Made by a program: the position numbers and the translations under genes. The notes under the pieces were generated by a model. That model was not told the DNA's origin, made no database searches, and saw nothing but the letters and a program-made list of their open reading frames with translations. Source: Chloroflexota bacterium (GTDB taxonomy: Bacteria; Chloroflexota; Dehalococcoidia; CAUJGQ01). Taken from it: a stretch of DNA of 48,334 nt. The DNA is taken from positions 1-48,334 of the forward strand of contig CAUJGQ010000017.1 of the NCBI GenBank assembly GCA_963170165.1, read 5' to 3'. Each line of letters opens with the position of its first letter. The first letter of the stretch is position 1. Shown here in pieces: positions 4,461-6,677 of this stretch.

Positions 4461-5855
4461 ATGCAGGCAACGACGCTCCATGATCTGTCGCTGGCCGAAG
4501 CCGCGGCAGCGGTCCGCTCCGGCGAGGTCGCTCCGATTGAATTAACAGACGTGATGCTGGAGCGCATCGAGCGGCTCGATCCCACGCTCAACAGCTACAT
4601 CACCATCACCGCGGACGCCGCCCGTACGGCTGCCCGCGCTGCCGGCGATGCCTTCCGCCGCGGCGACGTGCTTGGCCCGCTGCACGGTGTCCCCATCGCC
4701 CTGAAGGACTTATTCGATACCGCCGGCGTGCGCACCACGGCCGGCGCCGGTCTGCTGCATGATCGTGTACCCGTGCGCGATGCGACGGTCACCGCCCGAC
4801 TCCAAGCAGCCGGCGCGATTCTGCTCGGCAAGCTGAACATGCATGAGTTTGCCTTCGGCGTCACCACCGCCAACCCGCACTTCGGTTCCTGCCGGAATCC
4901 GTGGGATGTCAGCCGCATCCCCGGCGGGTCGTCCGGCGGTTCCGGCGCAGCGGTGGCGGCAGCGCTCTGCTACGGCGCCCTCGGCTCAGACACCGGTGGC
5001 AGCATCCGCATTCCTGCATCGCTGTGTGGCGTGACCGGGCTAAAGCCCTCGTACGGACGGGTGTCGCGGGCCGGTGTGCTGCCGTTGTCGTGGACGCTTG
5101 ATCATGTCGGGCCAATGACCCGCACCGTCACCGACGCCGCCATCATGCTCAACGTCATCGCCGGTCACGACTCCGCCGACCCAGCCAGCGCTGGTATCGC
5201 CGTGATGGATTGGACGGCGAATCTCGAAGCGGACATCAGAGGACTGCGCATCGGCCTGCCACGCGCGTACTTCTGGGAGGGTTGCGAGCCCGGCGTGCTG
5301 GCTGCGCTGGAGGAGGTCGCGGCCGTGCTGCGTGCCGAGGGAGCAGAGGTGCGTGACGTCGAAATCCCGGACCTGGCACTGGCTGGGCTGGCGTTTCCGC
5401 CGATCATCTCGGCGGAGGCAGCCGCGTTTCACCAGCGCTGGCTGCGGCAGCACCCTGGAGCGTATGGCGACGACGTCCGCGAGCGGTTGGAGACGGGCGC
5501 ACTGTACCCTGCAACCCAGTACATCAACGCCCAGCGGCTGCGCCGTATCGTAACCGAGGGATTCCTGACTACGCTCACTTCGGTGGATGTGCTGCTGACC
5601 CCAGCCACACCGGTCACGGCGCCGGCGCTGGCAGACACCGTGGTCGCAACACCGAACCCGCTCACGCGCTGCACCTTCCCGATCAACCTCACCGGCCTAC
5701 CGGCGCTGGTGGTCCCGTGCGGGCAGGATGGCGCCGGACTGCCGGTAGGCGCCCAGTTCATCGGCCGGCCGTTCGCGGAGGATACCGTCTTGCGGGCCGG
5801 GCGCGCATATGAGCGGGTGACCGAGCATCACCTGCGGCGGCCGGGGGTGTACTGA
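4461..5855 (+). CDS. Amidase-signature family hydrolase (GatA/AtzE-like)
   Basis: A 464-residue amidase. The Ser-cisSer-Lys triad is intact: Lys82 in G-V-P-I-A-L-K-D-L-F, Ser157 in G-G-S-S-G-G-S (the second catalytic serine acts as nucleophile) and Ser181 in T-G-G-S-I-R. The overall pattern LKPSYGRVSRAG and 'DHVGPM' is typical of GatA-like enzymes. It hydrolyses a carboxamide; the substrate is not evident. A true GatA would normally sit with gatB and gatC, neither of which is here, so a catabolic amidase with an AtzG-like small subunit is more likely. The neighbouring alcohol dehydrogenase suggests a catabolic unit, but that is inference. Confidence 0.85.
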   Translation: MQATTLHDLSLAEAAAAVRSGEVAPIELTDVMLERIERLDPTLNSYITITADAARTAARAAGDAFRRGDVLGPLHGVPIALKDLFDTAGVRTTAGAGLLHDRVPVRDATVTARLQAAGAILLGKLNMHEFAFGVTTANPHFGSCRNPWDVSRIPGGSSGGSGAAVAAALCYGALGSDTGGSIRIPASLCGVTGLKPSYGRVSRAGVLPLSWTLDHVGPMTRTVTDAAIMLNVIAGHDSADPASAGIAVMDWTANLEADIRGLRIGLPRAYFWEGCEPGVLAALEEVAAVLRAEGAEVRDVEIPDLALAGLAFPPIISAEAAAFHQRWLRQHPGAYGDDVRERLETGALYPATQYINAQRLRRIVTEGFLTTLTSVDVLLTPATPVTAPALADTVVATPNPLTRCTFPINLTGLPALVVPCGQDGAGLPVGAQFIGRPFAEDTVLRAGRAYERVTEHHLRRPGVY

Positions 5856-5864
5856 CGGCACAGG

Positions 5865-6347
5865 TCAGAAGGTACGGCCAAGTGGCTGATCCCACGGCTG
5901 GGGCGCCGCCACCCGGATTACCTCCTCTTCCATATCACGGACATAGAGGTAGAGCTGCGCGAAGAACTCCTCCTCCGGTAACGGGTAGGAGGGGTTGATG
6001 CACAAGTAGTTGAAACGCCATGGCGGCGTCACGCCGGGTGCGCAGCGCACCTCGATGCGCAGGCCCACCCGTAGCCGGTAGGTGACTCCGTGATACAGCC
6101 GAGATGGCACCTCGAGGTACTTCTGCCGCTGCAGTTGCTCCCACAGCGCATCGCCCAGCGTAGCGCGGGCAACCTCGCGAGCGTTGGCGCGGGCGGTACG
6201 GTAGTCGTCCCGCCGAAAGTCCGGACCGGCCGAGCGTCGGGGGACATGATACCACTGGCGGGCCCAGGGCAGCTCGAGCGTCGCGCTGTCACTCGACACC
6301 GCCCCCTCCGGCTCCCGACTCAGCCAATGTTGCACCCGCTTGAACAT
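5865..6347 (-). CDS. Uncharacterised protein with possible E2-like cysteine motif
   Basis: A 160-residue soluble protein that I do not recognise as a named family. ATG 6347 follows GAGG by 5 bases; an in-frame GTG at 6383 would add 12 residues. The N-terminal 40 residues look disordered, then a helix (about 48-77), a beta-rich stretch (78-115, including GVTYRLRVGLRIEVR) and Cys116 in N-Y-L-C-I-N-P, followed by a proline turn Y-P-L-P and a long amphipathic helix E-E-E-F-F-A-Q-L-Y-L-Y-V-R-D. Strands, then Cys, aromatic-Pro and helix recall prokaryotic E2-type conjugating domains. It lies 93 bp downstream of the diglycine-ended protein on the same strand. The E2 comparison is inference only; it could equally be an unrelated lineage-specific fold. 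Confidence 0.55.
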   Translation of the reverse strand: MFKRVQHWLSREPEGAVSSDSATLELPWARQWYHVPRRSAGPDFRRDDYRTARANAREVARATLGDALWEQLQRQKYLEVPSRLYHGVTYRLRVGLRIEVRCAPGVTPPWRFNYLCINPSYPLPEEEFFAQLYLYVRDMEEEVIRVAAPQPWDQPLGRTF

Positions 6348-6440
6348 TGCCGCCTCGTTTGCTGATCGCGTGCGACGCGGCACGGACCTGCCGCCGGTCG
6401 GGTAGCGGCGGAGCCCGCGTCGCTGTCCTGCACAGAACCG

Positions 6441-6677
6441 CTAGCCCCCGGCGATTGGGGCGATCACCTGGTACTCCTCAACCCGCGGATCGAACGGGCC
6501 GTCATCTAGAACGTGGATGTCGCCGGCCTTGCGCGACACGCGGCAGCCGGCGCGCCGGGCCTCTTCGATGATCCGCTCCGCTTCCTCGATGGCGGCACGG
6601 TTCTCGGCGGTGTCCAGCTCCGGATGCCACTCAACAGTCTGGTGACCGCGCCGGTTCGCAATGATCAGTCGTGCCAC
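6441..6677 (-). CDS. Small ubiquitin/MoaD-like protein with C-terminal Gly-Gly
   Basis: A 78-residue protein starting at GTG 6677, fixed by a strong AGGAGGAG site 6 bases upstream; a longer start at 6704 has no such site. The predicted order is beta hairpin (about 2-17), a long charged helix (24-45), a strand around G-D-I-H-V-L and a final strand E-Y-Q-V-I-A-P-I-A-G-G ending exactly at the stop. This beta-beta-alpha-beta-beta order and the P-x-A-G-G tail match ubiquitin-like beta-grasp sulfur carriers and modifiers (MoaD, ThiS, Ubl), whose terminal glycine is adenylated. No moaE, thiazole or E1-type gene lies nearby. The Ubl reading is an inference from tail and secondary structure; sequence identity to MoaD elsewhere is low. 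Confidence 0.6.
   Translation of the reverse strand: MARLIIANRRGHQTVEWHPELDTAENRAAIEEAERIIEEARRAGCRVSRKAGDIHVLDDGPFDPRVEEYQVIAPIAGG

Follow-up and report, generated by a model that had tools for sequence, protein, structure and literature searches.

A conserved gene pair for a ubiquitin-like protein and a cysteine-bearing, possibly E2-like partner in Chloroflexota and phages

Two adjacent genes in the window, the whole 48,334 nt stretch of Chloroflexota DNA analysed here, encode a small ubiquitin-like (Ubl) protein that ends in Gly-Gly and a partner protein that carries an invariant cysteine. The conservation of this pair is far beyond chance: the two genes have been kept together over the whole phylum and in phages, without an activating enzyme (E1) or JAB protease gene of their own. 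The pair may represent a pared-down system for tagging proteins, one that relies on an activating enzyme encoded elsewhere in the genome.

The gene pair in the window

Both genes are in the minus strand (Table 1), flanked by ordinary plus-strand genes for an amidase on one side and an HhH-GPD DNA glycosylase on the other. The two ORFs read as set out in a preliminary description of this DNA, with a 78-residue product ending in PIAGG (QVIAPIAGG in the longer C-terminal sequence). The GTG start of the Ubl gene is at the position where homologues have ATG or GTG. For the downstream gene, the starts of homologues suggest ATG 6347, and counting from that codon confirmed both the 93 bp that separate it from the Ubl stop and the numbering of Cys116 in the motif NYLCINP. 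An alternative in-frame start, GTG 6383, would give a protein of 172 aa.

Table 1. Features of the Ubl and partner genes
Feature	Position	Strand	Details and basis
Ubl gene	6441..6677 (including stop)	minus	GTG start at 6677; 78 aa; predicted beta-grasp; ORF, homologue starts, AF2
Codons for Gly77-Gly78, Ubl C-terminus	6444..6449	minus	Sequence; GG conserved in homologues
Partner gene (E2-like?)	5865..6347	minus	160 aa from ATG; ORF, homologue starts, AF2
Partner strand meander (residues 90-128)	6000..6116	minus	DSSP on AF2 model
Codon for invariant Cys (motif YLCINP)	6000..6002	minus	Cys116 (ATG 6347) = Cys128 (GTG 6383)
Partner helix after Tyr-Pro-Leu-Pro turn (residues 137-150)	5934..5975	minus	DSSP on AF2 model

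Linkage and co-inheritance

Profiles of the Ubl and of the partner, run against 301 Chloroflexota genomes, each found the same 61 (Fisher 2e-65, a value that overstates independence because phylogeny is uncorrected). Linkage was assessed in 116 distinct Ubls, four of which are at contig ends. The partner is adjacent in 109 of the 112 testable cases, usually with the Ubl gene first, and these include about nine phage contigs and one plasmid, so the conserved pairing anticipated for the two genes is borne out. By profile, the partner was found within 3 kb in 107 cases, of which 103 have it directly downstream on the same strand, two in reversed order (L071 and L258), one on the opposite strand (L189) and one approximately 1.9 kb away; linkage survives the changes of order and strand. 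In the two further cases (L248 and L249) the adjacent partner is just at the profile threshold, and the true orphan Ubls are L195, L200 and L228. The distance matrices of the two proteins are strongly correlated (Mantel r 0.94, 107 pairs), and shared ancestry contributes to this value.

The genes that neighbour the pair vary between genomes, and no third gene was conserved across genomes in neighbourhoods of up to 20 kb. DUF3090 was examined as a candidate for a third component and rejected, as it is near the pair in only 9/77 larger loci and is present in 197/301 genomes generally, but it does recur beside the pair in some lineages. The DUF3090 protein (PF11290), which has a C-terminal CxxC..HxC zinc-like motif, is encoded beside the Ubl in both subfamilies described below (L034 15290-15832, L036 3187-3786 and L069 9042-9635 among them) and also beside the orphans L195 (8273-8932) and L200 (6986-7558).

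The Ubl protein

The Ubl is confidently predicted to be a beta-grasp protein. Its AF2 model (mean pLDDT 91.4) has the order strand-strand-helix-strand-strand-strand, with strands at residues 2-8, 11-17, 46-51, 54-57 and 68-72, a helix at 24-42 and a flexible tail. Structural comparison (VIA) put beta-grasp proteins, together with the similar protein L/G fold, on top with Z of at most 4.3, including the Raf RBD (Z 4.3), TtuB (Z 4.1), MoaD (1fm0; Z 4.1, 61 residues, 3.6 A) and BubA (Z 3.8), and the best Foldseek E value was 0.075. Taken by themselves such Z values are low, but the order of elements agrees with the fold, and model and matches together support the beta-grasp pattern first read from the sequence.

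An exact terminal GG is found in 99/102 full-length distinct Chloroflexota Ubls, and the remaining three run past it. The residues after GG are SSS in L087 (3714-3953), A in L185 (7851-8123) and a long read-through in L080 (8001-8768). A protease might have to remove these extensions, or they could be artefacts of assembly, as may be the case for the L080 read-through. Among phage and plasmid relatives, tails that end in AG, PG and VG also occur. The final Gly is therefore present nearly everywhere, while the penultimate residue is relaxed in some mobile copies, and the terminal GG proposed as an invariant feature holds for the Chloroflexota proteins with few exceptions but not for all of their mobile relatives. 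Homologues without the terminal GG had been named beforehand as evidence that would count against the proposal.

Neither the Ubl nor the partner returned anything credible from Pfam, NCBIfam, PHROGs, PADLOC or PDB sequences, and judged by sequence the pair appears to belong to no named family. The ThiS model (PF02597) was not matched by the Ubl or by 17 homologues in a Pfam scan, though two other proteins of the window genome match it easily. Matches of the Ubl to PDB sequences were stretches of approximately 25 residues in designed SAKe proteins and were not credible, and an alignment-profile search of PDB sequences gave spurious matches only. The weak matches to MinC (0.16), phrog_26113 (0.048) and DUF7776 (7.6e-4, the best among 3 homologues) were likewise not taken as assignments.

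The partner protein

The partner cysteine is invariant, as the preliminary description would have it, in 97/97 bacterial copies and in 106/106 copies when those from phages are included. Only two other columns are fully invariant among the 106 aligned partners, one Glu and one Ala, both in the C-terminal helices. In the AF2 model of the window protein, which belongs to the close subfamily, the order is helix-helix-four strands-helix-helix with the cysteine at the end of strand 4, and the core at residues 58-160 is well predicted (pLDDT about 85-98). In Cys128 numbering, helices at 58-76 and 78-87 are followed by strands at 90-93, 100-104, 110-114 and 126-128, the last of which is closed by Cys128, and then, after this residue, by a Pro-capped helix (137-150) and a short one (152-158).

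It had been suggested that the partner is an E2-type domain, and the evidence on this is divided. In its favour are the predicted topology and the spacing from the cysteine to the following helix (Cys+8 to Pro and helix), which by eye rather than in a computed alignment resembles the ICLDIL..WSP-helix arrangement of E2s. Structural comparison of the model returned only 19 chains at Z of at least 2, and the matches that span the whole core (about 64-160) are all UBC E2s, namely 1q34, UBE2A, E2 J2 and UbcH5a (Z 2.1-2.7). The best of these is 1q34, with Z 2.7 over 82 aa, a value too low to exclude common arrangements. On the other side, Foldseek against the PDB gave no match with E below 2, and alignment by hhalign to a four-sequence yeast E2 profile, which served as a yardstick only, gave a probability of 0.3, no better than scores obtained with 12 unrelated control families. 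The partner has no Pfam match to E2 or Prok-E2 and no match among PDB sequences, and the HPN motif is absent from all of the aligned partners. Prok-E2_B (PF14461) is found in only 2/301 genomes and is absent from that of the window, and MoaE was not matched by the partner in a Pfam search of 23 homologues. An E2 reading of the partner is plausible from its modelled topology and weak structural matches.

An activating enzyme elsewhere in the genome

The window genome encodes one true ThiF-domain protein, an E1 of MoeB/ThiF type. Its gene is on contig C50 (about 5046-5933) and not on the window contig, where neither an E1 nor a JAB family was matched, in keeping with the absence of both near the pair that was noted at the outset. 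At pair loci generally, no linked E1, E3 or JAB gene was found. The part of the earlier proposal that has a stripped pair using an E1 from elsewhere thus stands as far as the location of the E1 is concerned, while the status of the partner as an E2 is not established. On C50 the E1 gene is located between two ThiS-family proteins, with tails VIPAIAGG and ILPALAGGC that are similar to the tail of the Ubl, and two cysteine-synthase-like ORFs. This region (L147 3788-7268; G000 contig C50) is likely to be a CysO-type cysteine pathway. An E1 is present in 266/301 Chloroflexota genomes and shows no enrichment where the pair occurs (56/61 pair-bearing and 210/240 other genomes). As the E1 is near-universal in the phylum, its presence is compatible with the pair but uninformative. 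In many genomes that have the pair, Prok-JAB matches are found near the E1 gene, and those of the window genome are on other contigs.

The company kept by this E1, the only true one in the genome, raises the question of a sulfur relay, in which the Ubl would be a sulfur carrier with a C-terminal thiocarboxylate and the partner, whose cysteine would take the sulfur or form an acyl-disulfide, would be the acceptor or adaptor for one thiolation. The PxAGG tail of the Ubl is like the tails of ThiS, MoaD and CysO, MoaD and TtuB are among its structural matches, and a single invariant cysteine suffices for such chemistry. However, the Ubl escapes a ThiS model that readily picks up the genome's true ThiS proteins, no biosynthetic enzyme is linked to a pair whose neighbours change from genome to genome, and the membrane anchor and phage carriage of the partner described below would be unusual for cofactor sulfur transfer. 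We consider a sulfur relay unlikely.

Subfamilies and additional partner copies

The pair falls into two subfamilies, the partners of which are homologous (hhalign 99.6%). The close subfamily is that of the window, with the Ubl tail PIAGG and a partner ending in QPWDQ..GRTF, and in the distant subfamily the Ubl tail is mostly PRVxGG and the partner has an HKLMIE helix. A survey of 84,980 species (one genome each) returned 44 close-subfamily loci, most of them from Chloroflexota by title (Thermomicrobiales, Sphaerobacter, Ktedonobacteria and Chloroflexia). A small number have Proteobacteria or Rubrobacter in their titles, and two of the Proteobacteria titles look wrong. Beyond the Chloroflexota genomes, the distant subfamily was looked for in viral contigs, phage records and plasmids. 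One genome has a third version that is very divergent (L242; G265:C314, 3668-4729 and 4810-5232), with a Ubl-like tail LTRGG and the motif DFCIVRG in the partner.

A transmembrane-like N-terminal segment, called where the Kyte-Doolittle mean over 19 residues is at least 1.6, is present in 44/49 paired partners of the distant subfamily and in 0/43 of the close subfamily, for which the AF2 model has an N-terminal helix of low confidence. Several pair-bearing genomes also include extra partner copies with no Ubl adjacent, and the cysteine is kept in all of them.

The partner might also be the sole target of the Ubl, which would be attached to it or bind it at the conserved cysteine region and so switch it on or off. 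Urm1 is attached in a comparable way to the peroxiredoxin Ahp1 (Redox Biol 2020, PMC7016264). The one-to-one pairing with its strong co-divergence, the lack of any linked E3, protease or further substrate gene and the membrane anchor in one subfamily all fit such a switch. It is quite unlikely nonetheless, since partner copies that have no Ubl of their own retain the cysteine and no recognisable domain is found in the partner beyond the core that bears it.

Phage and plasmid copies

About nine distinct phage contigs proved to carry the pair in a scan of viral contigs with follow-ups. The Ubl tail is VPPMVGG in an 81 kb phage contig (L226/L247), QVAGG in the 595-kb phage record LR756511 (L246), TIPG in Virus Rctr197k (L245) and QAG in L227/L248 with L249. 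In L250, L251, L253, L255 and L256 it is GG by search design. As the viral pattern scans required GG before the stop codon, they provide no evidence of GG conservation in phages. A further contig (L225/L254) ends before the partner gene could be complete. A Bradyrhizobium plasmid carries the pair in reversed order, with the Ubl tail VVG.

All of the phage partners keep the cysteine and have an extra N-terminal extension instead of a membrane helix. The best viral match was A0A1P8DIP4 (268 aa, E 2.3e-3), which is probably the Virus Rctr197k partner (P0004), a protein of equal length, and the partners in L253 and L251 had no match among annotated phage records. In Virus Rctr197k, CRISPR repeat regions are annotated on both sides of the pair (L245 6327-6581 and 13545-15059). 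A small zinc-ribbon-like protein (CPxCxHRHxR), related in the two phages, precedes the Ubl in L226 (4289-4603), where there is one further ORF in between, and in L246 (3665-4030). The phage orphan L228 (4806-5714) is a fusion, in which a Ubl-like stretch with SGG as its last residues runs on into a longer protein that resembles an internal virion protein, and a transglycosylase-like ORF is next to it. This fusion is possibly a precursor that is processed after GG.

Phage copies of this kind also bear on whether the two proteins simply form a stable non-covalent complex of a beta-grasp and a small alpha/beta protein, with the GG and the cysteine as interface or folding residues. Such a complex would have begun as a phage module for assembly or host interaction and been retained afterwards by Chloroflexota. 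The pair in L227/L248/L249 is found among tail- and virion-like genes, and the fused phage Ubl, the N-terminal extensions of phage partners and the less strict GG in phages point the same way, but no virion module surrounds the remaining phage pairs or any of the bacterial pairs sampled, and a near-universal terminal Gly with an invariant cysteine is hard to explain without C-terminal chemistry. We regard a purely non-covalent pair as unlikely.

Discussion

The free GG, the invariant cysteine, the co-inheritance of the two genes, the multiplicity of partners and the presence of a general E1 are best explained by transfer of the Ubl to the partner cysteine. We propose, with confidence a little short of even, that the pair is a thioester-passing Ubl/E2-like module with a borrowed E1; its anatomy is observed, and activation by the E1, the thioester and conjugation are inferred. 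A general E1 of MoeB/ThiF type, kept for cofactor or cysteine biosynthesis, would adenylate the C-terminal Gly of the Ubl, the activated Ubl would form a thioester with the invariant cysteine of the neighbouring E2-like protein, and this protein would then pass the Ubl to some acceptor. In the distant subfamily the N-terminal helix would anchor the E2-like protein in the membrane, so that transfer there would occur at the membrane, and in phages the extra N-terminal extension would take the place of the anchor. If one Ubl served several E2s, partner copies that have kept the cysteine but have no Ubl of their own would be expected.

A broader claim is rather less likely than not: that the pair represents an undescribed family of conjugation modules in which a modifier and an E2-like cysteine enzyme depend on the cofactor E1 of the host. 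Such modules would be anchored in the membrane in one bacterial lineage, and several large phages would carry them independently of one another. Proteins of the host or of the virion might be tagged in this way by some of these phages.

To our knowledge, the known bacterial Ubl conjugation systems have their own E1 in the operon and usually a JAB protease too. If the borrowed-E1 module is real, a Ubl with a cysteine partner would be an intermediate between sulfur-carrier Ubls that share an E1 and dedicated conjugation cascades. The accounts of ubiquitin-like biology in bacteria that we know of deal chiefly with host defence, and carriage by phages would add a viral side to it. The hypothesis is directly testable because its components are two small proteins and one identified E1.

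Comparison with known systems

No such pair in Chloroflexota or phages is described in the open-access papers that were searched. Small bacterial protein modifiers are also known in Pup and UBact, but Pup is disordered and UBact has extra residues after GG, and we know of no E2-like partner of either.

The pair resembles the Bil operon (BilA Ubl, BilB E2, BilC JAB and BilD E1) in combining a small bacterial Ubl that has a C-terminal Gly with an E2 that has a single catalytic cysteine. It differs in having no E1 or JAB gene nearby, a single-domain Ubl and a partner that does not match Prok-E2/UBC models, and in occurring also inside phages. BilB carries a CEHH motif (PMC11354881). Bacterial Ubl conjugation interferes with phage assembly, according to the title of Hor et al. 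2024 (cited in PMC12987554). Among the E1/E2/JAB/Ubl operon types 6a-6e of Iyer, Burroughs and Aravind 2006 (PMC1779556), type 6d pairs a stand-alone Ubl that has a C-terminal Gly with a distinct E2-like protein that has the cysteine but not the upstream His, which some other prokaryotic E2 groups lack too. The window pair shares this stand-alone Ubl and separate cysteine-bearing protein. However, the defining feature of types 6a-6e is an E1, linked or fused, together with a JAB, and the window pair has neither. The same study provides a phage precedent in the lambda-type TAPI tail-assembly protein, which has a Ub-like domain and is encoded next to a JAB/NlpC protein (PMC1779556), and this is different from the phage pairs described here.

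With the carriers ThiS, MoaD, CysO and TtuB, the Ubl has the beta-grasp fold and a tail of the PxAGG type in common, and use of a general E1 is plausible for it. It differs from them in not matching the Pfam ThiS model and in having an invariant-cysteine partner that is not MoaE, ThiG, CysM or TtuA. The likeness of the partner to UBC/E2 enzymes is in the predicted order of helix, strand meander, cysteine, Pro and helix and in the weak structural matches over the whole core, but it is shorter and has no detectable sequence homology, no HPN motif and no C-terminal UBC helices. Membership of the partner in the E2 superfamily is not established, and our tentative view, held at slightly less than an even chance, is that the pair would work like an E1-Ubl-E2 relay in which the E1 has been outsourced.
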